From: Desulfobulbaceae bacterium | Lineage (GTDB): Bacteria; Desulfobacterota; Desulfobulbia; Desulfobulbales; Desulfobulbaceae | Reading direction: 5' to 3' | DNA length: 40,525 bases | Assembly: GCA_023544645.1 (NCBI GenBank) | Contig: JAMJFO010000028.1 | Span: 1-40,525 of the forward strand | Translations under genes and position numbers: made by a program | Part shown: piece after piece, positions 5,955 to 26,709 of the stretch | Numbering within the stretch: position 1 is the first letter of the stretch | Layout of the letters: every line of letters begins with the position of its first letter | Notes under the pieces: model-generated | Told to the model about the DNA's origin: nothing | Database searches by the model: none | What the model saw: only the letters and a program-made list of their open reading frames with translations

Positions 5955-6163
5955 TACGTAATCGATCCTGCATCCCCTCTTACGATGGGCGGGCGTCTTT
6001 TCGCACCGCAATCGCCCGTATTTCCTCCCACCCGTTTTTCATGGTCAACCCGCCGGCAAAGTATAGCTTTTCGGTTGATTTCGTCTGCAGTTATGCTAAT
6101 CAATATCCTGGAGTATTGGGTAAATATAACTCGATCCATACTGATTATGAAAATGGTTAAACT

Positions 6164-7939: not shown

Positions 7940-7957
7940 TCCGCAACATTCTTCTGC

Positions 7958-9055
7958 CTATAAAACAAAATCAGCAACCCCCTCTTTATCAATCTGCAAG
8001 GGTGAAGAAACGGTATCGGCAGGGCTGTCCCTGCTGCTGACCACCGCGGTGATCTGTCCCTTGTCGTCGCTGCCGGCATCTGGAGTGATGACGTCTCCGG
8101 CAACATACTCCTTGCTGTCCGCCGCGGAATATAATTTCCCCCGTCCTTCACGATCATCATCCAGTCCCAGTGCCGACAGGTCTATTATGGCCAAGTCCTC
8201 CAGATCCGCCAGGCTAATAACCGCCTTATGACCTATCTCCTGGATATGCGGGAGGATCTGGGGCAAAAATTCAGGAAACCGGGACTCCAGATAAGAATAA
8301 AGTATTTTTGCCTCCAGAAACCTTTTTTCTTTCTGCGCCTGTTTTGCTGCGTTGAAGATATTGTTTTTTATTTCCACTCTTTTGCCAAGCAGAGTAGCAT
8401 ATCCTTCAATCTCTTCCTGCATGTCGGGAAATGCCGACTGCAGGGCGGCAAACTTTTCCCGGGCAACATCAAACTGTTTTTTCCTGATGCACTCAACGGC
8501 CTCTTCGCGCATGGCCCCGGTTACATAGCTGATCTTCTCAAGATAGCCGTCCACTTCATCCTGCCTGTCAAAACCATGGATCTGTTTGAACAGGGATTTT
8601 GCCTCGGCATAGTTGCCGCCATCAAACGCCTGGACAGCCCTGTTGAATTTTTCGTTATTCTGAAGATTCCGTTCAACTTTTCTTCGCAGGCTGATTACTT
8701 TTTCATTGAGATTGGGATCGAATGCCTTGATGTTCCTGAGCAGCATGGAAGTCCGGTTAAAATCGCCTTCAACGTATGCCTTTTGGGCCTGCTCATATTT
8801 ATCGACAATGCTGATATCTCTCTTGATGTTCGACAAAAGAAGCAGAAAATCCGTCCGGTTGTCCGGGAATTGACCCGGCAGCTTTTCGGCCAGTTCCCTG
8901 GCCGCATCGTATTTATTCTCACTTAACAGGACGCGAACCTCTATGAGCTTTTCCTGCTTCGACGTTTCATATTCATCAAAATTTATATGACAATGCTGGC
9001 AGGAAAGACCGTCTTCACTTCTCTTGTTACATTTGGGGCAGGTTTTATCAGCCAT
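7958..9055 (-). CDS. Zinc-ribbon protein with TPR-like helical repeats
   Basis: This 365-residue protein begins with a zinc ribbon (Cys6, Cys9, Cys19, Cys22) and continues as a long helical region of repeated motifs such as YVEGDFNRTSMLLRNI, FDGGNYAEAKSLFKQI and IRKKQFDVAREKFAAL, which resemble TPR units. A segment near residues 280-297 reads ISLADLEDLAIIDLSALGL, and the last 60 residues are acidic and probably disordered. I see no membrane helix and no catalytic motif. Function is unknown; a cytoplasmic adaptor is the simplest reading. It lies 112 bases downstream of the metallo-beta-lactamase gene on the same strand and converges on the MORN gene. Confidence 0.82.
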   Translation of the reverse strand: MADKTCPKCNKRSEDGLSCQHCHINFDEYETSKQEKLIEVRVLLSENKYDAARELAEKLPGQFPDNRTDFLLLLSNIKRDISIVDKYEQAQKAYVEGDFNRTSMLLRNIKAFDPNLNEKVISLRRKVERNLQNNEKFNRAVQAFDGGNYAEAKSLFKQIHGFDRQDEVDGYLEKISYVTGAMREEAVECIRKKQFDVAREKFAALQSAFPDMQEEIEGYATLLGKRVEIKNNIFNAAKQAQKEKRFLEAKILYSYLESRFPEFLPQILPHIQEIGHKAVISLADLEDLAIIDLSALGLDDDREGRGKLYSAADSKEYVAGDVITPDAGSDDKGQITAVVSSRDSPADTVSSPLQIDKEGVADFVL

Positions 9056-9167
9056 GACAATGCTCTCTTTGCTTTTCAGTCTTTTTATCTGTTTTCTTCA
9101 ACCCATCGAAACATTTGCCGATAAGTATAGCGCAATACTGGTATCGGATAACGCCTGTCCTTGCCTG

Positions 9168-10559
9168 CTACAAATCAAATACCTGGTGAGGCTCCGGCAT
9201 TTCCACCCGGGTCTCTTTCAGGAGGCCGGCAAAAACCTTCATGCTGTCCTCTTCGCCGTGCACCAGAAAAGTGGTCTGCGGGCTGCCGGTTCCGGCATGC
9301 CAGGAAAGGAGCTCGCGCTGATCGGCATGGGCTGAAAAACCGCCGATGGTGTAGATGTCCGCCCGGACCTTGATCTCATCGCCGAATATGCGCACCATTT
9401 CTTCACCATCGATTATGCGGCGGGCCAGGGTACCACGGGCAGCATATCCGACAAAGATCACCGAAGCCTCATTGCGCCACAGATTATGCTTGAGATGATG
9501 GCGAATCCTTCCCCCGGTGCACATACCTGAACCGGCAATGATCACCGCACCGCCGGTAAACTTATTGATGGCCATGGACTCAGCCGATTCACGGGTAAAA
9601 CGAAGTCCGGGCAGGAAAAAAGGATCCTTGCCGGAGTGAAAAATCTGTAGTGCCTCCTTATCGTAACATTCAGGATGGCGACGAAAAATCTCGGTGGCTG
9701 AAATGGCCATGGGTGAATCCAGGAACACCGTCAGGGTTCCGGGCAGGCGGCCGTCATCAATCCCCTCACGGAGATGGTAGAGAATCTCCTGCGCCCTCTC
9801 CAAGGCGAAACTGGGAATGAGCACATTCCCCCCCCTGGCCAGCGTTGTATTGATCGCCCGGTAGAGCTCTTCAACAGATGGTCCAAGCTCTTTGTGCAGC
9901 CGGTCGCCATAGGTGGTTTCCATCACGACAACGTCTGAATCAGGCGGGGATGCGGGATCGCGGAGGATGATCCTGCCGCTGTAGCCCAGATCGCCGGAGA
10001 ACAGCACCCGTTTTTTGACGCCGTTTTCTTCCAGGTCCATTGCCACGGCGGCGGATCCCAGGATATGCCCGGCATCGTAAAAGGTTATACAAATGCCCGG
10101 AGCAAGTTCATGACAAGCTTCAAACCCTGTTATATCGGTAAAAAAATCCAGGCTGTTCAACGCGTCCAGGGTATTATACAACGGTTTGATCTCTTCACCG
10201 CCGCCCCCTTTTCTGCGGGCTTTTCTCGCCTTGTATTCAGCTTCCTCTTCCTGAATGCGGGCAGAGTCAAGCATGACCAGCCTGGCAAGTTCCCTGGTCG
10301 CCGGGGTGCAAACGATTTTTCCACTGAATCCCCTTTTGGCCAGGAGAGGAATACGGCCGCAATGATCGAGGTGGGCATGGGTGAGAATAAGAAAGTCAAT
10401 GGCGGCCGGATCAAATCCGAAATCATTTCTGTTCTCCTCATCCATATCCCGGCCGCCCTGGAACATGCCGCAGTCAACCAGCAGTTGCATGTTGTTGCAT
10501 TTAACGAGGTGACAGGATCCGGTCACGTTTCTGTTGGCGCCATGAAATTCAATCTGCAT
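9168..10559 (-). CDS. Metallo-beta-lactamase/beta-CASP ribonuclease-like protein
   Basis: From the ATG at 10559 this is a 463-residue protein of the CPSF73-like beta-CASP family. It carries the metal motif THAHLDHCG (His61, His63, Asp65, His66), further signatures YDAGHILGSA and FSGDLGYSGR, the beta-CASP region with FALERAQEIL and SGMCTGGRI, and the late GGFSAHADQRELL and VHGEE motifs. Such enzymes are two-zinc RNA exo/endonucleases in the cytoplasm. The chosen start has GGAGAG five bases upstream on the minus strand; a frame extension of seven codons exists but that start lacks a comparable site. Family is certain; the RNA targets are not known. Confidence 0.92.
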   Translation of the reverse strand: MQIEFHGANRNVTGSCHLVKCNNMQLLVDCGMFQGGRDMDEENRNDFGFDPAAIDFLILTHAHLDHCGRIPLLAKRGFSGKIVCTPATRELARLVMLDSARIQEEEAEYKARKARRKGGGGEEIKPLYNTLDALNSLDFFTDITGFEACHELAPGICITFYDAGHILGSAAVAMDLEENGVKKRVLFSGDLGYSGRIILRDPASPPDSDVVVMETTYGDRLHKELGPSVEELYRAINTTLARGGNVLIPSFALERAQEILYHLREGIDDGRLPGTLTVFLDSPMAISATEIFRRHPECYDKEALQIFHSGKDPFFLPGLRFTRESAESMAINKFTGGAVIIAGSGMCTGGRIRHHLKHNLWRNEASVIFVGYAARGTLARRIIDGEEMVRIFGDEIKVRADIYTIGGFSAHADQRELLSWHAGTGSPQTTFLVHGEEDSMKVFAGLLKETRVEMPEPHQVFDL

Positions 10560-10835
10560 TTCTTCTCTCCACCATGCCATGAAAATTCATTCATGGATTT
10601 TGTGATATAGTTCCGAGTATTTGACCAGAGAATCATCCGAATATCCAGTTTTTATTTCATTCCCCCAGTCACTGTGATATATTGCGGAGACAGCGTAAAT
10701 ACTCACAGGACAGAGCAATCACACATCCACTGCTGCCGACATTCATAGCGGCTGCAGGGCGCCGTTTAGGAGATAGTGAATTTAGTTTGCCCATTTCCTG
10801 TTGCCCCGCTTCTTCATTAAACTTATATATAAATC

Positions 10836-11819
10836 ATGCATACTCACACCCTATCCAACTGGCAGCATCGCCATGACTTTGCGGTCATTCACGAGCATGG
10901 AGAGCGCCGGACTCTGCAGGTACTGGTTCTTACCGCGGTGACCATGGTTATCGAGATTATTGCAGGCACGATCTACGGTTCCATGGCCCTGCTGGCCGAC
11001 GGCTGGCACATGGGCACCCATGTCGCCGCCTTCATGATCACTATTTTTGCCTACCGATATGCCCGCAGGCATGCCGATGACCCGGCCTTTGCCTTTGGCA
11101 CGGGCAAGGTGAGCGTCCTGGGCGGGTTTGCCAGCGCCATCGCCCTGGCCATTGTTGCCCTCATGATGGGCATTGAATCCATCCAGCGCATTATTATGCC
11201 CCAGGAAATACACTTTAACCAGGCCATCGGGGTGGCTGTCCTCGGCCTGGTCGTCAATATACTCAGCGCTTTTCTTCTCCAGGGACGCCACGACCATTCC
11301 CATTCCCACGACCATCGCCATGACCATCACGACCACAACCTGCGCGCAGCCTATATGCATGTCCTTGCTGATGCGTTGACTTCCCTGCTCGCCATTACCG
11401 CGCTGACGGCCGGAAAATTCCTCGGCTGGAACTGGCTCGATCCGTTCATGGGCATTGTCGGCGCAGTGGTGATCACCCGCTGGGCGTATTCCCTGCTCAC
11501 CGACACAAGCCCCATCCTTCTTGACGGCAGTATTGACCAGGTATACAGGCAAAATATCAAAAAAGCGCTTGAAAAGGACATGGACAACAGGGTTGCCGAT
11601 ATGCATGTGTGGAAAGTCGGTCCAGCGGATTTTGCCGCCATCATTTCCATAGTCACCCATTACCCGCAGCAGGTGGAGCATTACCGGAGCCTGCTTCAGG
11701 ATTTCTCGGCGCTCTCCCATCTAACAATCGAAATCAACAGGTGCGGCACTGAGCCGTGCATTATTGCCGAAGGAAAAAAAGATGAAACGCAACCGCCTGA
11801 ATGGCGGGAAAACGATTAA
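10836..11819 (+). CDS. dmeF: Cation diffusion facilitator, DmeF-like Co/Ni efflux
   Basis: This 327-residue membrane protein is a cation diffusion facilitator. It has the paired metal-site motifs (Asp55-x-x-His58 in LLADGWHM, and His175/Asp179 in YMHVLADALTS), about six membrane helices and a cytoplasmic C-terminal domain. The His-rich loop RHDHSHSHDHRHDHHDHN at about residues 151-168 lies between helices IV and V. The wording near the start (ERRTLQVLVLTAVTMVIEI, SMALLADGWHMGTH) matches the DmeF branch, which exports cobalt and nickel using the proton gradient. It stands alone: the 276 bases upstream hold no clear gene, and it converges on the next gene. The exact metal is inferred. Confidence 0.88.
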   Translation: MHTHTLSNWQHRHDFAVIHEHGERRTLQVLVLTAVTMVIEIIAGTIYGSMALLADGWHMGTHVAAFMITIFAYRYARRHADDPAFAFGTGKVSVLGGFASAIALAIVALMMGIESIQRIIMPQEIHFNQAIGVAVLGLVVNILSAFLLQGRHDHSHSHDHRHDHHDHNLRAAYMHVLADALTSLLAITALTAGKFLGWNWLDPFMGIVGAVVITRWAYSLLTDTSPILLDGSIDQVYRQNIKKALEKDMDNRVADMHVWKVGPADFAAIISIVTHYPQQVEHYRSLLQDFSALSHLTIEINRCGTEPCIIAEGKKDETQPPEWREND

Positions 11820-11869
11820 AGGCAATATATACTGCAGGAAAAATAAAGGGAAAAAGGGCAGAGTTCAAA

Positions 11870-12622
11870 CTACAGGGATATCCGATCCCCGGAAACGGGC
11901 AGCATCAGCTGGGGATGAGCCTTCAGCAGGACATCAATATCGGCAGCCTGCTGCTGCCGGAAATTCCTTTCCAGGTGAACCAGGGCCAGTTTTTTAATTC
12001 CGGCATCATTCGCCAGTTCGAGGCACCCGGTGATCGAGCCGTGGTTATGGATTTCTTCGTCGAGCCTGAATGCTTCATGCACAGCCAGGTTACAATTTTT
12101 TATCAGTCCGGCAACTTCGTCTGTGGGGCGACCGTCCCCGCTGTAATACAGCTTCTTTTTCCCGTCATCGACAAGCAGCCCCAGGTTCTTCTGTGAATGA
12201 TCGGTCTGCATGAATTGCAGAGACAGACCGGAAAATTCTCTGGCCGCACCCGATTCAACTTCCTCGAACCGGACATCGTAGCAGAGTCGTGCCCTGAAAT
12301 TCGGATAGGCCAGGTCCATTGCCGCCACCACCTTGTCAGCCACTCCTCTCTGCCCGACAATGCGAAGAGGTTTTGACCGTTTCATTTCCCAGAACCTGAG
12401 CAGGAGCAAGGGCATGCCGAAGAAGTGGTCGCCGTGAAAATGGGATATCCAGACCATATCAAGCTGGTCCGGATCTTCAAAGAAGGCAAAATAGCTGTGC
12501 GGAACCGAGAAACCGCAATCGCACAGCAGGCTGACATCATTTGAGGCGTGAACGTGAATTGAGGTGTTGCCATGTTTGGGGTCGCAGGCCTCGCCAACGC
12601 CGACAAAAAATACTTCCATCAT
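11870..12622 (-). CDS. RNase Z-like metallo-beta-lactamase hydrolase
   Basis: This 250-residue protein has the metallo-beta-lactamase fold: HxHxDH at residues 61-66 (SHFHGDHFFG), a later TDHSQKNLG, YYSGDGRP with the bridging Asp, and a C-terminal VHLERNF. The overall layout is like RNase Z/ElaC or the related cyclic-phosphodiesterase group, but it is shorter than typical RNase Z (about 300) and I do not see a clear exosite arm. tRNA 3' processing is therefore possible, not shown. The start has AAGAG four bases before ATG. It converges on dmeF, 50 bases apart. Confidence 0.82.
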   Translation of the reverse strand: MMEVFFVGVGEACDPKHGNTSIHVHASNDVSLLCDCGFSVPHSYFAFFEDPDQLDMVWISHFHGDHFFGMPLLLLRFWEMKRSKPLRIVGQRGVADKVVAAMDLAYPNFRARLCYDVRFEEVESGAAREFSGLSLQFMQTDHSQKNLGLLVDDGKKKLYYSGDGRPTDEVAGLIKNCNLAVHEAFRLDEEIHNHGSITGCLELANDAGIKKLALVHLERNFRQQQAADIDVLLKAHPQLMLPVSGDRISL

Positions 12623-12797
12623 GGAGCTCTTCTCTTTTGTTTACGCTCTGCTCTGATATCAACAGGTTCGGTTGTGGTCTCGATCAGCCAAGCTTACATT
12701 TTCTGTTTATATCATGGCGCTCAATGAATCAACTCTTTGCCACCATCTTGATCTACATATATACCTCATGCGTATGAATATTTACCGCATTCAACCG

Positions 12798-13484
12798 TTA
12801 TGACCTGTCCTGATCAAACATGGGCAAATACCCACCGCCAGATGAAGTCTGCGCTACTTCTTCGGCCAGCTGATCGGGAGAAAACGGCAGGAAGGCAAAG
12901 AGAAATTCTTCCAGCTCAACGCACCTGTTGAAATTGATCCGGATAAGTCGGTGCATTTCGGGATCGCCGTTTCCGTAATGCTCCAGGATATATTCGAGGC
13001 GGTCTTCCAGACTGACGATTTCCTCATGCCGCACCCGTTTATCCGCGTAATAAATGATCTCCCTGGCGTTGAACAGACCAAGGCTCCGCCGCTTTGCATC
13101 GTGATCCCGGAGGATAACGTGCTCCTCGACAATTGAAGCTATTTCGGGATAACCAAGATGGAGGCAGATCTCCGCCCCTTTGCGGGCATGATCGCAACCG
13201 TTTTTCAGGCAGGGGGTCTTGGCTATATCATGGAGCAGAGCCCCGGCCGCCACCAAACATCTGTCCGGTATTGCGGGGGGAATCGGCTCACCCTCCTCAA
13301 ACCCTTCGATAATCCTCAGAGCCGCGCGCGCAACTATGACCGAATGTTCCCTGATATTGGGGAGCATCGCGTACTCATCCATCAGCTGGAAGCATCGGGC
13401 TATGTCCGGTATATCGATTGCGGTCGTCACATCGGATAAAGAAGCAATTACGTTGGCATTCCTGCTAAATGAGGACCTTTTCAT
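12798..13484 (-). CDS. HD-domain phosphohydrolase
   Basis: This protein of about 228 residues carries an HD domain: His in NIREHSVIVARAAL, the His-Asp pair in GALLHDIAKTPC, and further metal or substrate histidines in GCDHARKGAEICLHLG and EEHVILRDHD. HD proteins hydrolyse phosphate esters, often nucleotides. The frame extends upstream to a TTG at 13520; I prefer the ATG at 13484 because the TTG lacks a ribosome site, but neither is strong. It sits downstream of hemE and ahbD on the same strand and is probably cotranscribed. Whether it is linked to haem or simply carried along is unknown. Confidence 0.82.
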   Translation of the reverse strand: MKRSSFSRNANVIASLSDVTTAIDIPDIARCFQLMDEYAMLPNIREHSVIVARAALRIIEGFEEGEPIPPAIPDRCLVAAGALLHDIAKTPCLKNGCDHARKGAEICLHLGYPEIASIVEEHVILRDHDAKRRSLGLFNAREIIYYADKRVRHEEIVSLEDRLEYILEHYGNGDPEMHRLIRINFNRCVELEEFLFAFLPFSPDQLAEEVAQTSSGGGYLPMFDQDRS

Positions 13485-16364: not shown

Positions 16365-16631
16365 ATGAGTTGTTATAATTTAAGCGATGAGGTCACCTGG
16401 CGGGATGTCGACGAGGAAATGATCGTCCTCCACCTGCCCACCGGCAAGTATTACACCTTTAACAATACCGGACACCTGGTGTGGCAGCAGCTGGCAGAGG
16501 GAAAGGATACGTCGGAGATCACCTCGCAGATAATGGACAAATACGAGGTTGACAGGGAGACGGCAATCAGAGATCTCTCTGCCTTCATCAGCGGATTGAA
16601 GGAACATAATCTTATCAGCGAAAAAAATTGA
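16365..16631 (+). CDS. PqqD-like RiPP leader-recognition protein
   Basis: This 88-residue protein is a PqqD-family RRE domain. The pattern YNLSDEVTWRDVDEEMIVLHL, then GKYYTFNNTGHLVWQQLAEG, then a helical end with YEVDRETAIRDLSAFISGL is typical. These domains bind the leader of a ribosomal peptide and present it to the modifying enzyme, usually a radical SAM/SPASM protein. The ATG at 16365 follows AGAGGA; a longer frame beginning at 16329 overlaps the upstream gene and adds a sequence unlike the family. It stands just before the two precursor genes, which strongly supports the role. Direct binding is inferred. Confidence 0.9.
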   Translation: MSCYNLSDEVTWRDVDEEMIVLHLPTGKYYTFNNTGHLVWQQLAEGKDTSEITSQIMDKYEVDRETAIRDLSAFISGLKEHNLISEKN

Positions 16632-16748
16632 TCCTGCATTTTTTTCATTCCATTTTATATTTTTTTTTAGTTTAATAAAATAATTCATAATACCGTAAAT
16701 TCATTTGATAGTGTTCTGATTAACGAATAGAGCAACAAAGGAGGAAAA

Positions 16749-16841
16749 ATGTCGAAATTAAACTACGAAGCTCCGCAATTCACATGCCATGAGCCCCTGG
16801 AATCCGTCAGCTTTACCTACTATTATTACTACTATTATTAA
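16749..16841 (+). CDS. Putative RiPP precursor peptide 1 with heptatyrosine C-terminus
   Basis: A 30-codon frame encodes a peptide that begins MSKLNYEAPQFTCHEPLE and ends with FT followed by seven tyrosines (residues 24-30), then TAA TAG. CAAAGGAGG lies five bases before ATG, one of the best ribosome sites in the window. Its N-terminal 18 residues match the second peptide at 13 to 14 positions (K-L-N, A-P-Q-F-T, H-E-P-L-E), while the ends differ, the usual sign of a common leader and variable core. It sits between the PqqD-like gene and three radical SAM genes. It has no homology I recognise. The leader/core boundary is inferred, probably after residue 18-22. Confidence 0.85.
   Translation: MSKLNYEAPQFTCHEPLESVSFTYYYYYYY
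16818..16838 (+). repeat. Seven-unit TAY trinucleotide repeat
   Basis: Seven tandem TAC/TAT codons (TAC TAT TAT TAC TAC TAT TAT) encode the tyrosine run of precursor 1. The mixture of TAC and TAT suggests that the run is held by selection on protein, although slippage could change its length in steps of one residue. Confidence 0.9.
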
Positions 16842-16864
16842 TAGTTTATTCATCAAAGGAGGAC

Positions 16865-16954
16865 ATGGCGAAATTAAACTGCCAAGCACCGCAGTTTACA
16901 TTACATGAGCCTCTTGAGCCTGCAGGTTATACCTATTACTCCCGGTACTGGTAA
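16865..16954 (+). CDS. Putative RiPP precursor peptide 2 (aromatic C-terminus)
   Basis: A 29-codon frame encodes a peptide starting MAKLNCQAPQFTLHEPLE and ending AGYTYYSRYW before TAA. CAAAGGAGG again lies two bases before ATG. It is a clear paralogue of the first peptide, 23 bases downstream, so the two arose by tandem duplication. The C-terminal ten residues hold four Tyr and one Trp with Ser and Arg mixed in. Shared position of F/Y-T-Y-Y suggests the modified core begins there. Modification, cleavage and activity are not visible from sequence. Confidence 0.83.
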   Translation: MAKLNCQAPQFTLHEPLEPAGYTYYSRYW

Positions 16955-16975
16955 TAACAGCGGCTCCACAGACAT

Positions 16976-17009
16976 ACCGGGTAGAAAGACCAGCGCTTAT
17001 CTACCCGGT
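16976..17009 (+). terminator. Hairpin after the precursor genes (first of two)
   Basis: ACCGGGTAGA pairs perfectly with TCTACCCGGT over 10 bp with a 14-base loop, 21 bases after the stop codon of precursor 2. No T run follows. With the next hairpin it could reduce read-through into the enzyme genes or protect the short precursor mRNA. Confidence 0.5.
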
Positions 17010-17012
17010 CCC

Positions 17013-17040
17013 GAATAACCGATTTTTCAATCGGTTATTC
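17013..17040 (+). terminator. Second hairpin between precursors and enzyme genes
   Basis: GAATAACCGATT pairs perfectly with AATCGGTTATTC over 12 bp around a TTTC loop, three bases after the preceding hairpin. The following bases (CTGTTTCAGG) are only weakly T-rich, so this looks like a partial terminator or processing site 50 bases before the kinase-like gene. Confidence 0.55.
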
Positions 17041-17090
17041 CTGTTTCAGGCGAACCTGTTCCCTGTTTCCCATCTTTCCGATCCAGACAT

Positions 17091-18167
17091 ATGCCAGCCG
17101 CCGCTCCGCCGACAGATCCGACATCGAAACATTATCTCCTCCCGCCGGACATCTGTCTCACCTTCACCGGTGACGACTACCCGGCCAGGCAGGCCATCGA
17201 GTTCATGTTCGACTATTGCCGGCCCCTCAACGGCCCGGAGAAACAGAACCGACAGCAGGTAATTGCCAGGATTTCCATCAACAATGAGTACATGTCTTCT
17301 CCCCTGCCGGACTGGATAGACAGACAGATAACCAACCGCCGGGAATATGATCATGTGCATGCCTTCTATGGCCCGGACGGAGAAATGGCGGCCCTGCTTT
17401 CAAACGGTGAGGGCTTTGTCTGCGGCCTGCTGAACAAAACCGCGGACCGGATCGACCTCACCCTGGGCAAGACAGGCGCCATGGAATCAATGATGATGTC
17501 GCCCAGCGCCATTTTCACCCCCCTTGTCCAGGAGGTCCTGCAACGCCGCAGCCATCTTGTTTTTCACAGTGCCGGGCTGCAGCTGCAGGATGGCACCGGG
17601 ATCATGATCCTGGCCGACTCCGGCGGCGGCAAGACAACAACCGCCCTGTCCCTCCTGCGGAAAAACGCTTCGATGCTGGCCGACGACCTGGTCATTTTCA
17701 CCCATGCGGGTTCCCTACCGGTCATCCATGGAATTCCCGAGCCGTTGAACCTTACCGCCGCGACCAGGGATTTTTTTCCCGAGCTCCGGGAAGCCGGATC
17801 CTTACCTGCCAGGGACGGGGTTACCGACAAGGTCGTCTTTGATCCCCGCAGCATATACGGCGACAACTGTTTCGGGGCCGGTTCGCAGCTGCACGTTATC
17901 TACTTTGTCGAGGTAAGCCATGGCCAACCGAGCCTTTCACCTGTTTCCCCGCACATTGCCCTGGGGAAAATGATCAAGGGCTGCACCTTTGCGTTCAATC
18001 AGAAGCTGACCCGTGCTTCCGGATCCAGCCTTTTCGACCTTGCCTCGACCATACCCTGCTTTACCCTGCGGACCGGATCAGACCCCGCTTACCTCGGCGA
18101 CTGGCTGCAGGAAAAGAGCATGGCCATCGCCTCCGCCACCATCCGGTCAACGCCTTCGAAAACATGA
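17091..18167 (+). CDS. HPr-kinase-like ATPase of RiPP cassette
   Basis: This 358-residue protein has an N-terminal half without clear motifs and a C-terminal P-loop domain like HPr kinase/phosphorylase: VFHSAGLQL, then ADSGGGKTT at 175-183 (Walker A), then MLADDLVIF with the Asp pair near 198-199, and VHGIPEP-like IHGIPEPLNL. HPrK-like proteins in lasso-peptide and other RiPP clusters phosphorylate the peptide or act as partners for other tailoring enzymes. True HPr kinase roles in carbon control are unlikely given the neighbours. It overlaps the next gene by four bases (ATGA). The ribosome site is weak, and no better start is obvious. Substrate is unknown. Confidence 0.82.
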   Translation: MPAAAPPTDPTSKHYLLPPDICLTFTGDDYPARQAIEFMFDYCRPLNGPEKQNRQQVIARISINNEYMSSPLPDWIDRQITNRREYDHVHAFYGPDGEMAALLSNGEGFVCGLLNKTADRIDLTLGKTGAMESMMMSPSAIFTPLVQEVLQRRSHLVFHSAGLQLQDGTGIMILADSGGGKTTTALSLLRKNASMLADDLVIFTHAGSLPVIHGIPEPLNLTAATRDFFPELREAGSLPARDGVTDKVVFDPRSIYGDNCFGAGSQLHVIYFVEVSHGQPSLSPVSPHIALGKMIKGCTFAFNQKLTRASGSSLFDLASTIPCFTLRTGSDPAYLGDWLQEKSMAIASATIRSTPSKT

Positions 18168-19567
18168 CGTCAATAACGCGCTTCCTTCCAGAACTTGTCA
18201 ACTGCCTTGCCGGCGCCGATGAAGGAGCCGCGCGGGGAGCAGTCCGCGAACTCATGGGAGCGATCCCGATGGCGGCCCTGCCGGAAAGATGGCCGGACAA
18301 TTCAGATTATCTGCCGCCTGTTCAATCAGTTGTTCCCCATTGGCTTATCGATACCGGCACCGGGTGGTACAGGACCAATGAATTTATCAACACCTGCGCC
18401 GACCTGGCCGAACAGCTGGAAGGAGCACAGCTCGATCTTTTCTTTACCAGGATGGCGGCTTTGCTGGGCGCCACCAGGCTCTTCACCGCAGCCCTGCGTG
18501 AACGGGGACAGGAGACGCTCGCCACCAGGTTCATCCTGCGGCTGACCCATACCCGGATGCGGCAGTTTCCCATGCAGATCTGTTTTTCCCCGACGCTGCG
18601 CTGCCAGCTGCAATGCCCATACTGCATCTCGGCAGGAACGGCCGAGGAAACAACTCCGGAGCCGGACCGATCCCGGGTGGATACCCTGCTTGACTGGCTG
18701 GCCCGCCAGGGCATCCACCGCATCGGCCTGTCTGGCGGCGAACCGACCCTGTCGCCCCTCTTTCACTACATCGCGGACGAAACTGAACTGAGAGGCATGT
18801 CACTCTACATGGCCTCCAACGCCATGTTTTCCCCATCGACCTGCAGCCTGATCATCGACAGAGGCGTCTCATCGATAACCCTGCACCTTACCGACCAGAC
18901 CATCGAAGACTCCGAAAAAAGAAAGGTCTTTATCCGCAATGCCCGGGCGCTGGTTGCCGCAGGCATCAACGCGGCCCTGCGCTGCAACCTTACCAGACTC
19001 GACCAGGACCCGGCCATCTATGCTGATTACGCCCATGAAACCGGGATCAGGGAGATGCGGGTCGCCGTCCCCACCCCCAACGCCCAGCACGGCAACGAAT
19101 ATATAGAACCGGAAACCCTGCGTGATTTTGCCCGACAGCTTGTGGCCCTGCATGGCCGGTGCGAGAGCTACGCCATGGTGCTGCATCTGGCCAAGCCCTT
19201 TCCCCTCTGCCTGCTGCCGGAACGGACCGCCCGCTATTTTCTCGGCAATGGCTCTGCCGCCATCAACTGCCCCATGCACCAGAACGACTATTCCAACAAC
19301 ATTGTCGTGCATCCGGATTTTTCATTCATCCCCTGCCTGGGACTCAGCATGAAACAGCGCCGGCCCATAGTCGAGCATGACAACCTCCGGCAGGCGTCCC
19401 GGACATTCAGTGATTTCATTATGCCGTTGATCAGAAAACCCCTGTTCCGGCATTGCCCCGAGTGCCCCCTGTGGAAAGGCTCCCGCTGCCTCGGAGCCTG
19501 TCTCAGCTACCGTCTGCCGTCCACAACCGGCAATGATGTTGCCAAACCGGATTCAACGGACCTGTGA
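18164..19567 (+). CDS. Radical SAM/SPASM peptide-modifying protein 1
   Basis: This 467-residue protein has about 135 residues of helical N-terminal sequence, then the radical SAM motif Cys147-x3-Cys151-x2-Cys154 (CQLQCPYC), LSGGEPTLSPL near 187-197, and a C-terminal Cys cluster (NCPMHQN, FIPCLGLS, HCPECPLWKGSRCLGACLSY) typical of SPASM domains that bind extra Fe-S clusters. SPASM enzymes act on ribosomal peptides, and together with the PqqD-like protein this is the most likely main modifying enzyme. The long N-terminal extension is not a known RRE as far as I can tell. It overlaps its neighbours on both sides, indicating translational coupling. Confidence 0.88.
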   Translation: MTSITRFLPELVNCLAGADEGAARGAVRELMGAIPMAALPERWPDNSDYLPPVQSVVPHWLIDTGTGWYRTNEFINTCADLAEQLEGAQLDLFFTRMAALLGATRLFTAALRERGQETLATRFILRLTHTRMRQFPMQICFSPTLRCQLQCPYCISAGTAEETTPEPDRSRVDTLLDWLARQGIHRIGLSGGEPTLSPLFHYIADETELRGMSLYMASNAMFSPSTCSLIIDRGVSSITLHLTDQTIEDSEKRKVFIRNARALVAAGINAALRCNLTRLDQDPAIYADYAHETGIREMRVAVPTPNAQHGNEYIEPETLRDFARQLVALHGRCESYAMVLHLAKPFPLCLLPERTARYFLGNGSAAINCPMHQNDYSNNIVVHPDFSFIPCLGLSMKQRRPIVEHDNLRQASRTFSDFIMPLIRKPLFRHCPECPLWKGSRCLGACLSYRLPSTTGNDVAKPDSTDL

Positions 19568-20646
19568 TGAGCGCCACAGCTTTACAGATGCGGAACATTT
19601 CGCACTTTCTGCGCAGCACGCTGTCCGCCTTCATCAAGGGGGAGGAACCGGATACCATTGTTGAAAAACCGGACTGGCGCATCCTGCAAGGCATCGTCAG
19701 GGGCCGCAATCTCGCCGCGCTTTTCGCTTTCTGCCATGCCCATACTCACCTGCCCCCGCCGTTGATCCGGGAGTGGCAGCAGATGAAAATGGCAACCTCG
19801 CTGCGGAACATGGCCAAACTCAAGATCACCACCGACCTCACCGCTCTTGCGGAAAAGGCCGGAATCAGGGCCGTGGCCATGCGCGGCATTGTTCTGGCCC
19901 ATTGTCTGTACCCGGATCCGGCCCTGAGGCCCATGCATGATATCGACCTCCTCATCCGTCCGGCCGATCGCGAAAAATTCCATGGCGCCATGGAAGCGGC
20001 CGGTCATATTCCCACTGATTATTTCCGCAGCCAGTATGTGTATAAAATCAACAATGTCACCGTGGAAGTCCACTGGCAGATGCTTTCCAACAAGCGGTAC
20101 CGGGAAAGGATAGACAGTGACATCCTGGTCGGATCGGCTGTGCGGATCGACACCGGCAGCAGCCGCTACTTTCGCCTTGATGACCAATGGGAGATCATCG
20201 GCCTGGTGGTGCACGCCTTCACCCATCACAACCTGAGCCAGCTCTTCTCCCTTATTGACATCGGCCTCTATATGCGCAATAAAGAGCTTGACTGGCAGGA
20301 GGTTGCCCGCTTGAGCAAGGAGATGGGCCTATCCAGAATGATGCACCTCACTTTTGCCTTCATCAACCACCTCTTTGACCTGGGTCTCGAGGAAAAAGTG
20401 CTGCACCATTTTTCACCGTCGACCAGACAAGCGGAAAAATATTTCCCGGCCTACCTGGATCAGACTCTGGCCAGGATAACGCCGGCATCCCATTTCTCCA
20501 TCAAATGCAGTCAATTCTATGTGGCGGAAACATACATCAACAAAGGCAGGGAGCTGCTCCGGCTGTTCTCTGCCAAGGAGCGCCGCTTTCTGCTGGAACT
20601 TGCTGCCGCCCACTTCTGCAAGACCAGGCAAAAGCTCAAAGCGTAG
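19567..20646 (+). CDS. Nucleotidyltransferase-fold protein of RiPP cassette
   Basis: This 359-residue protein resembles the uncharacterised nucleotidyltransferase family seen in lasso-peptide and polysaccharide loci. The core reads AMRGIVLAHCLYPDPALRPMHDIDLLIRPAD, with the metal-binding Asp125 and Asp127; the usual Lys-Gly before the helix is Arg-Gly here. A second region HWQMLSNKRYRERID and HAFTHHNLSQLFSLIDIGLY also fits. Such enzymes could transfer a nucleotide to the peptide or a partner. The ATG overlaps the upstream stop (TGATG). A GTG three bases earlier is an alternative. The activity is inferred from fold only. Confidence 0.78.
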   Translation: MSATALQMRNISHFLRSTLSAFIKGEEPDTIVEKPDWRILQGIVRGRNLAALFAFCHAHTHLPPPLIREWQQMKMATSLRNMAKLKITTDLTALAEKAGIRAVAMRGIVLAHCLYPDPALRPMHDIDLLIRPADREKFHGAMEAAGHIPTDYFRSQYVYKINNVTVEVHWQMLSNKRYRERIDSDILVGSAVRIDTGSSRYFRLDDQWEIIGLVVHAFTHHNLSQLFSLIDIGLYMRNKELDWQEVARLSKEMGLSRMMHLTFAFINHLFDLGLEEKVLHHFSPSTRQAEKYFPAYLDQTLARITPASHFSIKCSQFYVAETYINKGRELLRLFSAKERRFLLELAAAHFCKTRQKLKA

Positions 20647-20649
20647 ATC

Positions 20650-22836
20650 ATGCGGGGAAAGCTTAACACAATCATGGAAACGGCAAACTGGCAGCATCTT
20701 GAAATAAAAGACAGTGATCCGTCGCAGTGGCTGCTGGATAAGGCCAAGGAAAATGTCCTGCTCGTTGCTCTGAACATGCCCGGCTATTATTCCCTGCCGG
20801 TCCGCATTCTTTCGTTGCTGGCCGGCCAATCAGATGAGCTTGGCAGCCGGTTCAATGTCCGCTATATGGAAAATTCCATCCGGGAACCCACGGACCGGCT
20901 GCTGGCGGTTATAACCTCCATGCATCCCGGGATCATCGGTTTTTCGGTCAACATCTGGAACCGGCAGTTGGTCATTGAACTGGCAGCAGCCATAAAAAAG
21001 ATCCTGCCAGGGGTCACCCTCCTGGCCGGCGGGCAGGAGGTGACCAACTCGGTGACCAATCCCCTCCTGGCCCTGCCCGGTTTCGATTATATCATTGACG
21101 GTGAAGGCGAAATACCTTTTGGCCAGTTTCTCCGGCAGTGGGACAAAGACGCAAATACCCTTGCTGAACCGGCAAGGGTTTCCGGACTCCATTATTATAC
21201 GCCCGGGGCGCAACCCGCATTCACCGGCCCGGCGGAGATCGTCGCCGGCCTGGATGAAGTTCCCTCGGTTATTCTGGCCGGACTCATCGACCCCAGGCTC
21301 TGCGCCAAAAAGCTCGGGGTGATGATCGAGGGCGCGCGAGGATGCCCGTTTCGCTGCGGCTACTGCTTTGAAGGCGGCTACAACCGGAAGGTCCGGAGCG
21401 CGCCGATGGAAAGGGTCATCGCCGAAATGGAATACATGGTGGACAAGGGGGCCGGATACTTTCATCTGATGGACCCCATTCTGTGCAACAGCAACCCCCG
21501 GCGGCTGAAAGAGATATCGGAGTTCTTCACCGCCCTGCGCCAAAGCCGGAAAGGAGCGGTCATTCTGGTCGAGGCCTATGCCCAGCATATAACCGAGGAG
21601 ATCGCCGGCCATCTCAAGCAGGGATTCATCATCGACATCGGGCTGCAGACCATCAACGAGCAGACCAATGAGGCGATCACCCGCCCCTTTGACAGGGAGC
21701 GGTTCAGGGAAGGAATAACCTATCTCCATAAAACAGGCGCCTCCTTCAACATTTACCTGATATGCGGCCTGCCCCATGAGACCATGGAGTCGTTTTTTCG
21801 GGGCATCCTTTTTGCCCTGGAGCAGAATCCAACAAAAATCTTCTTCAATGAGCTGCAGCTGCTCAACGGAACTGCGCTCAGGAAAAAGGCCCTTGATTTC
21901 AACTACACCTTCAATCCCGTCCCCCAGTACGAGGTCCATGCAACTCCCTGGATGAACAAACGCTCCATGCAGATCACCCTGACCGCGGCACGGACGCTGG
22001 GCCGCTACTACAATCTCAACGGCCGCTCCATCTACGCCGCTGCCCCATGGTATGCTTCCCCGCACGGCGTCAGCCATGAAGAGATCGTCCTGGACCTTGC
22101 CTCTCCCTGCGCCCATGGTTGTCCCGGATGCGTGCAGGGTGACGTCCGGGCATCGCGTCCCGAAGAATGGCGAAAACTGGAGAAAGCAAAAGGAAAACTT
22201 GCCGGCAAGGATGTACGGATGCGGGTCGGCAATCAGGTGGATGACAAACCCCTTCTCCGGTTCAGCGGCAAGATGCCGCTGGCTTCGGTGCTGCGTACCG
22301 GTATCCATGCGCCGGCTGATTTTTTTGATAACCCCCGGAGGGTGGACAGCCTGTTCCAGAGCGGCGCCTGGCATTACACAACCTTCCTCACCGCGCCCCC
22401 GGCCCGCGACCCGCGGGCGGCGGCACGATTTGACAGGAAACTGGCTGCTCTCGAATCACTCAACCGGACCCTTCCCCTGCCCGGGGCAGCGGTACTTGAA
22501 CCCCACCTGGATATCAGGCTGCTCACCGGCAAAGCAGATCCCGACGGCTACCTTCTGGCCATTGAAAAAATCACCGCCCGCCGCCCGACCGTTATATCTG
22601 TCCCCCGGGAACTTGACCATGCCGGGAAAAAGTGGCAGGCAGCCCTGGCCCGTGGATTCGACATCTGCATCAGCAGGGGCCACTGGCTGCGCCTGCCGGC
22701 AAAACAGATGCGCCATGCCCTGGCAGAGGAATATTCCGACGAGGTCATCACCTGCCTCGGCAAAATGAACCTGATCAGCGCCGATGATAATCAGCCGGTC
22801 TGTTACGTTGCGGGCGAACGCCTGCAGGGAGCCTGA
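20650..22836 (+). CDS. B12-binding-type radical SAM protein with second CxxxCxxC region
   Basis: This 728-residue protein starts with a cobalamin-binding-like Rossmann region (LLVALNMPGYYSLPVRIL, IGFSVNIWN, VTLLAGGQEVT, IIDGEGE), though the DxHxxG motif for His-on cobalamin is missing. The radical SAM motif is Cys232-x3-Cys236-x2-Cys239 (CPFRCGYC), followed by LMDPILCN and DIGLQTINEQTNEA. The last 240 residues hold a second Cys cluster at 487-491-494 (CAHGCPGC) in ILDLASPCAHGCPG. B12-type radical SAM proteins often methylate unactivated carbon, and others do ring or thioether chemistry. It starts three bases after its neighbour's stop. Family is firm, chemistry unknown. Confidence 0.85.
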   Translation: MRGKLNTIMETANWQHLEIKDSDPSQWLLDKAKENVLLVALNMPGYYSLPVRILSLLAGQSDELGSRFNVRYMENSIREPTDRLLAVITSMHPGIIGFSVNIWNRQLVIELAAAIKKILPGVTLLAGGQEVTNSVTNPLLALPGFDYIIDGEGEIPFGQFLRQWDKDANTLAEPARVSGLHYYTPGAQPAFTGPAEIVAGLDEVPSVILAGLIDPRLCAKKLGVMIEGARGCPFRCGYCFEGGYNRKVRSAPMERVIAEMEYMVDKGAGYFHLMDPILCNSNPRRLKEISEFFTALRQSRKGAVILVEAYAQHITEEIAGHLKQGFIIDIGLQTINEQTNEAITRPFDRERFREGITYLHKTGASFNIYLICGLPHETMESFFRGILFALEQNPTKIFFNELQLLNGTALRKKALDFNYTFNPVPQYEVHATPWMNKRSMQITLTAARTLGRYYNLNGRSIYAAAPWYASPHGVSHEEIVLDLASPCAHGCPGCVQGDVRASRPEEWRKLEKAKGKLAGKDVRMRVGNQVDDKPLLRFSGKMPLASVLRTGIHAPADFFDNPRRVDSLFQSGAWHYTTFLTAPPARDPRAAARFDRKLAALESLNRTLPLPGAAVLEPHLDIRLLTGKADPDGYLLAIEKITARRPTVISVPRELDHAGKKWQAALARGFDICISRGHWLRLPAKQMRHALAEEYSDEVITCLGKMNLISADDNQPVCYVAGERLQGA

Positions 22837-22838
22837 AC

Positions 22839-23831
22839 GTGAACATCTTCATAACCAACCACTGCCCCCGCAAATGCTCTTTCTGCTTTGCCAGGAGTCG
22901 TATCGGTCTTTCCACCGAACAGGAGAGCGCCGATATCATGAGCCGGGAAAACATCCGCCGGGTCATGGATTTTCTTGAACGCTCCGAGGAATACCAGCTC
23001 CGGCTGCTGGGCGGCGAGCCGACCACCCACCCTGAATTCCTGGACATTGTCAAAGAGGCCATGGACCGGAACTTCCGCGTTCAGATCTTCACCAACGGCA
23101 TGCTCAAGCAGGAACTCACCGACGCCCTGAGCGAACTCCCCCGGGACAGGCTTTCCTTTCTCTGCAACGTCTCTCCCCAGGCCAAAGACACGGAGGAGCA
23201 GAGGGAGCAGGTCCGCTACACCCTGAAAAAATTCAACCAGCGGGTGCAGGTGGGCGTCACCCTCACCGGCCCGTCCATGGATTACCGGTATCTCATTGAC
23301 TATATCGAAAAATATAACCTGCTCCGCCGCATCAGGGTAGGCATTGCCCAGCCCATTGTCGGCCCCACGCGAAACTCCCACCTCGCCACCGCCAAGTACC
23401 GGGAAACAGGAAAATTCATCGTGGCCATGGCCCGGGAATGCGTCAAAAAGGACATCCTCCTGGGTTTTGACTGCGGACTGACCCTGTGCATGTTCACGGA
23501 AGAGGAGATCGGGGTCCTGACCAAGTCAGCGGACGGTTTCCGCGGACTCTGCGATCCGATCATCGATGTGGGGCCCGGCCTGGATATCTGGCACTGCTTC
23601 CCCCTGGCCGAGACGTTGAATTCCAGGCTTGATCATTTCAGAACCCGCCGGCAGATTCTCAACTACTACAAGAAAATCACCATGCCCTATAAACAGCTCG
23701 GCTGCATGGCGGAATGCGTCAGTTGCATCTACAAAAAACGGCAGCAGTGCACCGGCGGCTGTCTGGCCCATGCCATGAATTCCCTGAACAGATTTCCGCC
23801 CCGCATAGCTCCAGAACCCTGCGAGGCATAA
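22839..23831 (+). CDS. Radical SAM protein 3 with Cys-rich C-terminus
   Basis: This 330-residue protein starts at GTG with MNIFITNHCPRKCSFCFARS, putting Cys9, Cys13 and Cys16 in the radical SAM motif unusually close to the N-terminus. LLGGEPTTHPEF follows near residue 56. The C-terminal third has many cysteines (DCGLTLC, LCDPII, IWHCFPLAE, GCMAECVSCIYKKRQQCTGGC), like a SPASM or twitch domain. The GTG start is three bases after the upstream stop, and it is the last gene of the cassette. I do not recognise its subfamily. Together with the other two enzymes it suggests several radical steps on the same peptides. Confidence 0.86.
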   Translation: MNIFITNHCPRKCSFCFARSRIGLSTEQESADIMSRENIRRVMDFLERSEEYQLRLLGGEPTTHPEFLDIVKEAMDRNFRVQIFTNGMLKQELTDALSELPRDRLSFLCNVSPQAKDTEEQREQVRYTLKKFNQRVQVGVTLTGPSMDYRYLIDYIEKYNLLRRIRVGIAQPIVGPTRNSHLATAKYRETGKFIVAMARECVKKDILLGFDCGLTLCMFTEEEIGVLTKSADGFRGLCDPIIDVGPGLDIWHCFPLAETLNSRLDHFRTRRQILNYYKKITMPYKQLGCMAECVSCIYKKRQQCTGGCLAHAMNSLNRFPPRIAPEPCEA

Positions 23832-24063: not shown

Positions 24064-24278
24064 GATAATAGTGGCCGACACCTTCCTTCTTGTAATAATT
24101 AAGTATAAAATATAACATGATACTGAACTGATAAACAGCGGCAGATTACAGTGCAGGCAGGTTGTCCGTAAATGCTCACGGGGTGGAGCAATCACGCATT
24201 GCGCTTTAACCAACATTTATAGTGGTTGTCCAGTGGCTCGTTGCTATTCACAATCATCCGGGCGGTAGAGAAGGTAAC
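24064..24278. other. Non-coding stretch between remnant and zinc-ribbon gene
   Basis: Together with 23832-23913 this makes up the rest of a 447-base gap around the receiver remnant. I see no convincing gene, tRNA, insertion sequence end or terminator; the composition is AT-rich near 24085-24130, unlike the flanks. Confidence 0.4.
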
Positions 24279-26192
24279 ATGACGGAAAAAAGGATCTTTT
24301 GTCCCGCGTGCCACTCGGAAAACCTGGACAATTCGGTCTATTGCTGCCAGTGCGGCTCACCAATGCGCAAGGGTATACCTGCCAGAATCCATAAAAGCCA
24401 GTGGCTTGCCATCATCATAATAACGCTGATCCTGAGCGTTATCCTCACCTCGGCCATACAATTTTTCAATGCCCCCCGAACCAGGCAGCCGGACGCTGAA
24501 AACCGGAGCCAAACCGCCCGGGAAAACAATACTGCCCGGCCCCTGGAAATTGATCCGGCCGGGCAGCCGGACAGGAGCAGAAAACCCTCCCGTGCCGGCC
24601 AGGTAGTCCCGAAGGCGCAACAGGAAACGGAACCGGACGAGGATCTCATCGTGGGCAGGGTGTCCATCGTGAGTCCCAGCGGCGTTATTGTTTCAGAATT
24701 TCCGGCCCCGGTCATCAACGGCTCGTGGCTGGCTCTGCCTTCCCGGGCATGTATCGGCGGGGACAACTGGTTTTTTACGGTGGGCAATGAAAAAGCAATC
24801 CCCATTGAAGGAGGCCTCTGGGGCAGAGGAGATGCCGTGGGTTTATGGCATCTTGCCGGTGAAGGCAAATTTCAGGGACCCGGCTTTTCCACCTGGAACC
24901 AGGATATGCCGGTCAGGCTGCTCTCCATTGACACCGGTTTACTCTCGAAGCCGATGTCCCTGACCCCTTCCGGTGTCCAGGGAGCCTTCATATACATTTC
25001 CCTGCCCGGCCGCCTGGACCCCGGAGTGTTCCTCCAGAACGGAATGGTTGTGGGCTGGTCCTTCGGCGATATCCTGGATGGCGCTTACATGTGGCCCCTG
25101 GGTTCGGAAGCAAACCTTCTCTATACAAATTATGTTGATGATTTCTACAATGAAACCTTTGCCGGCGGCCGGGAAGAGTATTTCTCCATTGCCCTTACCG
25201 AGGGAAGAGAGTCTTCACCCCAGGGCCAGCTGCAGATGTTTGCCGAAGCATTCCGGCACTCCCCGAAGCTCTCGCCCGAAGATACACCGCGGCGCCTCAG
25301 AGTTGAAAACATATACCCTCTCATATCAAAACTGGTGAACATTATAATGGACCAGAGTGCATACCATTACATAGCAACGCTTACTGGAGAGCCTCTGCTC
25401 TGGGAGGCCCGCGACCCTGAGCTGCTGATGAACGTTGTCCTGGCCACCCGGAATGTCTATGGACCGGTGACGGCAGTCAATTTCATGGAAGGACCCGGCG
25501 AAAATATACGCCGGTCATTGGAAGGGGAAAATGAAAAACTGACCCGGTTTCATCTTGAACTCTATCTTGGATGGATCAAAAGCCTCGTGGACAGTGGTAA
25601 CATTTCAAGGGGCTGGGATGTGTATGATCGGGCCCGTCCTTTTTTTAACGAATCTCCGGAACTGCAACTCCTTGCGGTGGAACTCGCCCTGGCAGGGGGG
25701 GATTGGGCTGTTGCGGAAAGCCTTCTGTACCAGAGAGCATATCCCGACCAATTCAGGGAAACCCGGATGATGCTGGCTGATCGTATTTCAGACCTGAAGG
25801 GACAGGAAAACAAAATAGTCATCAAGTTCCAGCCGGGCTCCAGGGACATTCCGGTCATCGCAACTGTCAACGACCGTATTGAACACGATTTCCTGATTGA
25901 TACCGGCGCTTCATTTGTTACAATACCATACTCCACAGTTGAGGCCCTGGGGATAGAAGATACTCTAAGCATGCATCAACAGGAGGTCCAGACCGCCGGT
26001 GGGACCGTATATGCCAATACAGTAACCCTCTCATCAGTTGAGCTGCATGGCTGGATCATCCCCGATGTCAAAGCGCTGGTCATTGACCTGCCCAACCGTC
26101 CCGGTCTTGGCCTCCTGGGACTTAATTTTCTCAACCGGTTCGGAATGGACCTGCAGGCGGATGAAGGCATTATTACTCTCGAACCCAAATAA
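24279..26192 (+). CDS. Membrane-anchored zinc-ribbon protein with retropepsin-like domain
   Basis: This 637-residue protein begins with a zinc ribbon (Cys8, Cys11, then Cys22/23 and Cys25) and a single membrane helix at about 43-62. A disordered Pro/Arg/Glu-rich linker leads to a large middle region that includes WSFGDILDGAYMWPLG, and then a helical stretch. The last 100 residues form a clan AA aspartic protease-like domain: DFLIDTGASFVTIP with Asp541-Thr-Gly, and GLLGLNFLNRFGMDL. Single-domain retropepsins act as dimers. The ATG at 24279 follows GAAGG; the frame runs 19 codons further upstream without support. It is predicted to place the protease outside the cytoplasm. Substrate unknown. 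Confidence 0.84.
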   Translation: MTEKRIFCPACHSENLDNSVYCCQCGSPMRKGIPARIHKSQWLAIIIITLILSVILTSAIQFFNAPRTRQPDAENRSQTARENNTARPLEIDPAGQPDRSRKPSRAGQVVPKAQQETEPDEDLIVGRVSIVSPSGVIVSEFPAPVINGSWLALPSRACIGGDNWFFTVGNEKAIPIEGGLWGRGDAVGLWHLAGEGKFQGPGFSTWNQDMPVRLLSIDTGLLSKPMSLTPSGVQGAFIYISLPGRLDPGVFLQNGMVVGWSFGDILDGAYMWPLGSEANLLYTNYVDDFYNETFAGGREEYFSIALTEGRESSPQGQLQMFAEAFRHSPKLSPEDTPRRLRVENIYPLISKLVNIIMDQSAYHYIATLTGEPLLWEARDPELLMNVVLATRNVYGPVTAVNFMEGPGENIRRSLEGENEKLTRFHLELYLGWIKSLVDSGNISRGWDVYDRARPFFNESPELQLLAVELALAGGDWAVAESLLYQRAYPDQFRETRMMLADRISDLKGQENKIVIKFQPGSRDIPVIATVNDRIEHDFLIDTGASFVTIPYSTVEALGIEDTLSMHQQEVQTAGGTVYANTVTLSSVELHGWIIPDVKALVIDLPNRPGLGLLGLNFLNRFGMDLQADEGIITLEPK

Positions 26193-26238: not shown

Positions 26239-26709
26239 TTATTCTTTTCTAAGCCGGACAAACTCTCCCCCTTCGGCACCCTTCAGTCTCGCCCAGTAAA
26301 CAACATCCCCGTGCTCCCCCATCCTGTCCGGGTACATCTCGTGCGGATCTTTTTCTTCGAAAAGCGGCCTTCCTTCAAAGCTGATCCAGCAATGACCTTC
26401 GGCCTCCCTCTTTCCCTGCAGGCTGTGCAGTCCGATATTAAGCTGCACGGGATATCCACGGATACGCAGGGCACGACAGCGGGCATAGCTGTAATAGAGG
26501 CAGGGGTGGGCGGTATTCACGATGACAAGACCGATTATCCGGTCCACCCCGGCCGCAAGCTGCTCCATGGAGAGCGAGGTGTTCACCCTGGGTGCGACAG
26601 GAGGAAGCGGAAGCCACTTGTTGCTGCCTTGGCGATTGGCAAGAAATGCCCGGCACAGGGAAGCAAGGACATTGAACGGAAAAAAGAATGAGGCAAAGGT
26701 CCGGTGCAT
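26239..26709 (-). CDS. Transglutaminase-like protein resembling lasso-peptide B2 protease
   Basis: This 156-residue protein resembles the B2 leader peptidase of lasso-peptide clusters. The segment HPCLYYSYARCRALRIRGYP carries the likely nucleophile Cys70, followed by VQLNIGL, and GHCWISFEGRPLFEEKDPHEMY carries His106 and an acidic partner. Length is typical for B2 (about 150). B2 is a cysteine protease that cuts the leader when helped by an RRE protein (B1). No lasso cyclase (asparagine-synthetase-like) or lasso precursor is nearby, so a stand-alone peptidase acting in another RiPP pathway is possible. The radical SAM cassette ends about 2.4 kb away. The gene follows an unknown gene on the same strand by 29 bases. 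Start is uncertain. Confidence 0.8.
   Translation of the reverse strand: MHRTFASFFFPFNVLASLCRAFLANRQGSNKWLPLPPVAPRVNTSLSMEQLAAGVDRIIGLVIVNTAHPCLYYSYARCRALRIRGYPVQLNIGLHSLQGKREAEGHCWISFEGRPLFEEKDPHEMYPDRMGEHGDVVYWARLKGAEGGEFVRLRKE

Follow-up and report, generated by a model that had tools for sequence, protein, structure and literature searches.

A conserved family of tyrosine-tailed peptides encoded beside lasso-type processing genes and three radical SAM genes

Gene content of the locus

The window analysed here, a stretch of 40,525 nucleotides from a Desulfobulbaceae bacterium, carries two tiny open reading frames of 30 and 29 codons, each with its own ribosome site (Table 1). Both had been picked out from the letters alone, and the frames, their ribosome sites and their different tails, seven tyrosines in peptide A and YYSRYW in its paralogue B, all stood up. 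The original prediction described the first 18 residues as nearly identical; the likeness is there, although with 14 identical residues and the differences S/A, Y/C, E/Q and C/L the wording was slightly generous. Genes of such length usually escape gene callers. Peptide A contains the lasso-leader motif YxxPxF, whereas B has CxxPxF, a cysteine replacing the motif tyrosine (CQAPQF). Despite this replacement, comparison of B with A over the first 25 codons gave pS 0.73 and pN 0.15, indicating that the leader of B is constrained too.

The pair had been placed between a PqqD-like gene and three radical SAM genes. The PqqD-like gene does lie upstream, but the gene directly downstream is that of an HprK-like kinase, followed on the same strand by a radical SAM gene, a PF14907 nucleotidyltransferase gene, a B12-binding radical SAM gene and the last radical SAM gene. 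Between this last gene and a peptidase gene further on (B2, below), positions 24222-26192 encode a zinc-ribbon and aspartyl protease protein (PF13650) that was not found at the other loci.

Table 1. Coordinates of the genes and features of the cassette in the window.
Feature	Position	Strand	Evidence
PqqD-like RRE, lasso B1 type	16365-16631	+	PF05402 E 1e-18; PDB TbiB1 6e-14, TfuB1 7e-10; in 5/5 genomes
Ribosome site of A	16736-16744	+	CAAAGGAGG, read from sequence
Putative precursor peptide A	16749-16841	+	30 aa, MSKLNYEAPQFTCHEPLESVSFTYYYYYYY; leader with YxxPxF, heptatyrosine C-terminus; orthologues in 4 genomes, purifying selection
Ribosome site of B	16854-16862	+	CAAAGGAGG, read from sequence
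Putative precursor peptide B, paralogue of A	16865-16954	+	29 aa, MAKLNCQAPQFTLHEPLEPAGYTYYSRYW; tail TYYSRYW
Hairpin between B and kinase gene	16976-17009	+	region 16955-17090 folds with z -5.2
Second hairpin, same gap	17013-17040	+	folding of region 16955-17090
HprK-like / lasso-type peptide kinase	17091-18167	+	PF07475 below gathering cut-off; H159, K181, D198, D199 invariant; PEPCK/HprK fold
Radical SAM enzyme, N-terminal extension, SPASM-like Cys	18164-19567	+	PF04055; CxxxCxxC and C431/C434/C442/C446 invariant in 5
Nucleotidyltransferase	19564-20646	+	PF14907 E 1.7e-41; such genes also occur in certain lasso clusters that have a kinase
B12-binding radical SAM enzyme, methyltransferase-like	20650-22836	+	PF02310 and PF04055; PDB CysS 2e-18, TokK 1e-13; fold comparison
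Radical SAM enzyme, SPASM-like C-terminal Cys	22839-23831	+	PF04055; 49-65% identity to relatives
Lasso-type B2 leader peptidase (transglutaminase-like Cys protease)	26239-26709	-	PF13471 E 5e-9, above cut-off; homologue in 5/5 genomes

Distribution and constraint of the peptide genes

Five of 258 genomes of the order/class hold the cassette, the window genome included, and all five are draft assemblies, which limits the comparison. Three relatives (L021, L022 and L023, from genomes G117, G171 and G419) were picked up with the first radical SAM protein as query and belong to the same family as the window, in another genus; the fourth (L035, from G475), of another family, was added by a profile of the B12 enzyme. 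Wherever the contig permits, we observed the same gene order, from the PqqD-like gene through the peptide gene to the last radical SAM gene, with genes that often overlap or abut. In L022 the contig breaks, with the terminal part of the last radical SAM gene and then B2 continuing on another contig; in L035 an ABC exporter gene is inserted within the operon. No exporter was recognised beside the window cassette, and neither the upstream Usp gene nor the HemE/AhbD-like heme genes have an orthologue at the relatives' loci. Beyond the order, among 395 sampled genomes of the phylum, the first radical SAM protein matched only distant single-domain relatives, and six other phylum genomes with such relatives (23-32%) held neither cassette nor peptide. 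A scan of genome contigs with two patterns returned only the three MAGs L021, L022 and L023, but the patterns were narrow and other phyla are therefore not excluded. Viral contigs gave no match, and plasmids only B12 radical SAM proteins of at most 30% identity over about half the length.

Orthologues of the peptide sit at the same place in all four other genomes and all contain YxxPxF. The sequence is MKKSYVAPQFFKHNPLESVSSTYYYYYYY in both L021 and L023, ends in SATYYYYYYY in L022, and is MKKTYVAPMFECHEPLESVSATYYYYTYYYY, with the tail TYYYYTYYYY, in L035. Each of these genomes has a single peptide gene, so that the predicted pair exists in the window genome only. The heptatyrosine is exact across two genera, in the window and the three MAGs, with TAT and TAC codons shuffled. 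In the three pairs within the L021/L022/L023 genus, 29 codons show 13, 13 and 18 synonymous against 0, 1 and 1 nonsynonymous differences (Fisher P 1e-13, 7e-12 and 5e-18), and at 2-5 of the 7 tyrosine positions the codon is not the same, so that preservation of a DNA repeat does not explain the tyrosine run. Peptide pN between genera is about 0.2 and pS is near saturation. The peptide is 97-100% identical within that genus, where the enzymes are about 51-83% identical; between these three genomes and the window the peptide is 76% and the enzymes are 28-49% identical. This persistence of the heptatyrosine while the codons varied and the enzymes diverged (28-65% identity to the window over the relatives) shows that the peptide is real and constrained.

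When we ran a peptide profile on 74 genomes of the family, it matched at E<1e-17 in the four cassette holders only, with the next match at E=0.1; peptide and cassette thus co-occur exactly in this set. The original prediction was to be abandoned if the frames were missing from related cassettes or their codons unconstrained. Instead, the family of both frames is kept and its codons are constrained, and the proposed division into leader and core gains support from a peptide present in 5/5 cassettes, always beside the PqqD-like gene and under strong purifying selection, though no chemistry has been shown. As far as sequence can establish it, the same-place orthologues in four genomes and the excess of synonymous change confirm that these are not chance frames, and the peptides are a genuine, selected family of putative RiPP precursors.

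Processing and tailoring genes

The leader machinery encoded around the peptides had not formed part of the original prediction, and it strengthens the leader/core reading. The PqqD-like protein has lasso B1 structures as its closest PDB matches. The B2 gene was uncovered by comparing neighbours across loci, and a PF13471 homologue at every cassette locus places B2 in 5/5 holders in three different positions or orientations: directly after the last radical SAM gene in L021 and L023, and after it in L022; beside the PqqD-like gene in L035; and 2.4 kb from the cassette on the opposite strand in the window. Scores against the lasso B2 model NF033537 (cut-off 33) were 32.1 bits, for the window protein, and 35.8, close to or over the cut-off. 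Directly 3' of B2, L021 (13362-14105) and L023 (5314-6108) carry an Rce1-like (PF02517) CAAX protease gene, not seen at the window cassette, for which a role in immunity or extra processing is possible.

In lasso leaders the motif YxxPxL lies at -17 to -12 (PMC10368454). With the motif tyrosine placed at -17, Ser (in B, Gly) falls at -2, and an invariant Thr follows two residues further on. Most lasso leaders have Thr at -2. The cut site is inferred: canonical spacing would leave the core TYYYYYYY and an invariant Thr at -2 the core YYYYYY, and we lean slightly towards the former. Either cut would leave an almost pure tyrosine product. Neither predicted core contains Asp or Glu in any member, and no tail contains Cys.

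Characterised lasso kinases phosphorylate Ser, and since the predicted core of A lacks Ser and has one Thr at most, the target of the kinase is unclear. A predicted model of the enzyme (pLDDT 82) matches the PEPCK/HprK fold. Its four His-Lys-Asp-Asp residues, kept in 5/5 genomes, correspond to those reported as essential in lasso kinases (PMC9266682) and to the BsfK motif (PMC10368454). In pseudomycoidin, the nucleotidyltransferase psmN acts after the kinase (PMC9266682). By homology, B1, B2, kinase and nucleotidyltransferase form a lasso-type chassis without a cyclase at the locus.

Alignment by hhalign relates the first radical SAM protein to the last (99.4%). The B12 enzyme has a second invariant CxxxCxxC at residues 487-494, which possibly binds an auxiliary cluster or belongs to a second, degenerate radical SAM domain in the C-terminal part; a profile for such a domain matches only 14-21 columns around the motif, and confidence in the structural model is low (mean pLDDT 57). 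The reaction types of all three enzymes are inferred from enzyme class only. Behind the cassette, L035 (3-4217) carries a ketoacyl-synthase-like ORF, two further B12-radical-SAM-like ORFs and a glycosyltransferase-like ORF.

We also compared 20 B2 loci from the phylum; a motif test marks a cyclase-like ORF in eight of them. At L098 (G030:C15:25000-40000), six tandem small ORFs (for example MKKEYEKPELVIYEDLSDVTAGVEPVSGVTG) lie at 5995-12962 near genes for a kinase, PqqD, PF14907, B2, DUF362 and an ApyD-like B12 radical SAM protein. L097 (G282:C1:1098000-1114000) carries, at 6717-11028, three small K-x-Y-x-x-P ORFs with a B12 radical SAM gene, PqqD, B2 and an HprK-like gene. At both loci, several small ORFs whose leaders read K-x-Y-x-x-P accompany B1, B2, a kinase and a B12 radical SAM gene, and the 15-16 kb retrieved for each contain no cyclase-like ORF, suggesting that the cyclase-less theme is probably broader than the tyrosine family. 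On its gene content L098 is a predicted second cyclase-less lasso-chassis family.

Interpretation and relation to known systems

A short leader-bearing precursor, an RRE, modifying enzymes and a peptidase share one conserved locus, which meets the general criterion for a RiPP. Because the peptide genes are kept by selection in five genomes beside lasso-style processing genes and three radical SAM genes, with no cyclase, they very probably give rise to a modified ribosomal peptide of a new kind. Our preferred reading, to which we give a probability of roughly 0.83, is that the two ORFs encode precursors of a cyclase-less RiPP with a lasso-type chassis and an oligotyrosine core, the chemistry and function of which have not been shown. 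B1 would bind the leader through YxxPxF and present the tail to the tailoring enzymes. In place of a cyclase, the two SPASM-like and the B12-binding radical SAM enzymes would modify the C-terminal tyrosine run, with tyrosine cross-linking and C-methylation the likeliest modifications if enzyme class is a guide; kinase and nucleotidyltransferase may add phosphate or nucleotide or sugar groups, and B1 and B2 would then remove the leader. The hairpin behind the peptide genes probably keeps precursor expression high and enzyme expression low. Binding, the order of steps, the cut site and the chemistry are all inferences; what the sequences themselves show is the gene content, the synteny, the constraint on codons and the lack of a cyclase at the locus. 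The reading is weakened by the absence of any product, transcript or enzyme assay, by the cysteine in the motif of B, by the distance of B2 from the window cassette, by the unclear target of the kinase and by the lack of a recognised exporter there.

Beyond this, we can only tentatively propose that the family is a RiPP class of its own: the oligotyrosine core would pass from a leader system of lasso type to the three radical SAM enzymes, and the product would be a polyphenol with cross-links, methyl groups and possibly phosphate. Exact conservation would point to a fixed physiological role as a redox mediator, in metal binding or as a signal, rather than to warfare. Alternatively, the peptide may be no secreted product but, as with PQQ or mycofactocin, the scaffold from which a conserved small molecule is made, a cofactor or a redox- or metal-binding compound, with tyrosines excised or fused. 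The tail is exact across two genera while the enzymes have diverged to 28-49% identity, unlike the variable cores of bacteriocins, and only 1/5 cassettes has an internal ABC exporter. Yet the tail does vary (TYYYYTYYYY, TYYSRYW), no NCBIfam cofactor model scores above cut-off, and a cassette so rare is unlike a core cofactor, leaving this explanation unlikely, if still worth keeping in view.

The chassis might instead merely cleave the peptide, the radical SAM enzymes acting elsewhere and the product being an unmodified tyrosine peptide. In the window B2 stands apart from the operon, as this would allow, but the conserved gene order, disturbed only by the ABC gene of L035, and the B12 radical SAM genes in L097 and L098 make it improbable. 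The gap behind the peptide genes bears on a regulatory leader peptide that acts on the downstream genes through hairpins. Folding is strong in the window, L021 (z -4.1) and L035 (z -5.5) and weaker in L022 (z -2.7) and L023 (z -0.5), and a hairpin followed by a U-run lies at the equivalent place in L021, L022 and L023; a scan for promoter and terminator consensus found nothing exceeding shuffles. These hairpins and the small size of the frames are all that favours a regulatory or chance origin, which we regard as very improbable given purifying selection along the peptide, its exact co-occurrence with the cassette and a leader motif that matches the adjacent RRE type, since an attenuator would have no reason to conserve YxxPxF. 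Finally, a true lasso peptide with its cyclase encoded elsewhere in the genome is scarcely tenable despite the B1, B2, kinase and nucleotidyltransferase of lasso type, because the predicted core offers no ring-closing Asp or Glu at 7-9, PF00733 has no match on any cassette contig of the five genomes (only these contigs being covered) and lasso machinery does not include the three radical SAM enzymes.

The cyclase-less oligotyrosine RiPP that we favour can be set against several known systems. The window proteins fall short of the SynChlorMet models (TIGR04248 21.7 vs 100, TIGR04249 16.6 vs 125, TIGR04250 25.0 vs 400 and TIGR04251 28.6 vs 400 bits). GeoRSP, PQQ, mycofactocin and Clo7bot models were likewise all below their cut-offs, and tails without Cys do not meet the thioether criterion of sactipeptides and ranthipeptides. 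SynChlorMet (the Scm models of NCBIfam) shares PqqD-like, HprK-like and radical SAM proteins with the cassette but lacks its B12 radical SAM enzyme, nucleotidyltransferase and B2. The B12 radical SAM methyltransferases KedN5, CysS and TokK share the order of B12-binding and radical SAM domains and include the best PDB relatives, whereas the C-terminal region of the window enzyme has the second CxxxCxxC, and its score against the KedN5-type model NF033712 is 116.4 bits with a cut-off of 700. Literature searches, including searches on polytyrosine and tyrosine-rich radical SAM RiPPs, found no description of the tyrosine family, its substrate or the full gene set, in keeping with the original prediction that no heptatyrosine-core RiPP family was known.

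Closest in gene content are the phosphorylated lasso clusters (paeninodin, pseudomycoidin and Bradymonas bsf), which share a short precursor with a YxxPx[LF] leader, a discrete B1 RRE, B2, a His-Lys-Asp-Asp kinase, a nucleotidyltransferase and sometimes an ABC exporter. Unlike them, this family combines an oligotyrosine core with three radical SAM enzymes and has neither a cyclase nor a ring acceptor in its core. Such a set, in which three radical SAM enzymes join a chassis of lasso type, is new and, by test, not that of a lasso peptide, and it suggests that B1, B2, kinase and nucleotidyltransferase are a portable module that works without a lasso cyclase. With seven identical tyrosines in the tail, any modification pattern would directly report how radical SAM enzymes select their sites along a chain of repeated aromatic residues. 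In general terms the idea has a forerunner, in that RRE-Finder listed about 300 discrete RREs of lasso type next to radical SAM genes that lasso machinery did not explain (PMC7470986). Those loci share with ours a lasso-like RRE without a lasso cyclase and adjoining radical SAM genes, and, as far as the available part of that report extends, it describes no such family, precursor or tyrosine core. For a group so far only mentioned as unexplained RREs, the present cassette is a defined instance in which substrate and enzymes can be named together.
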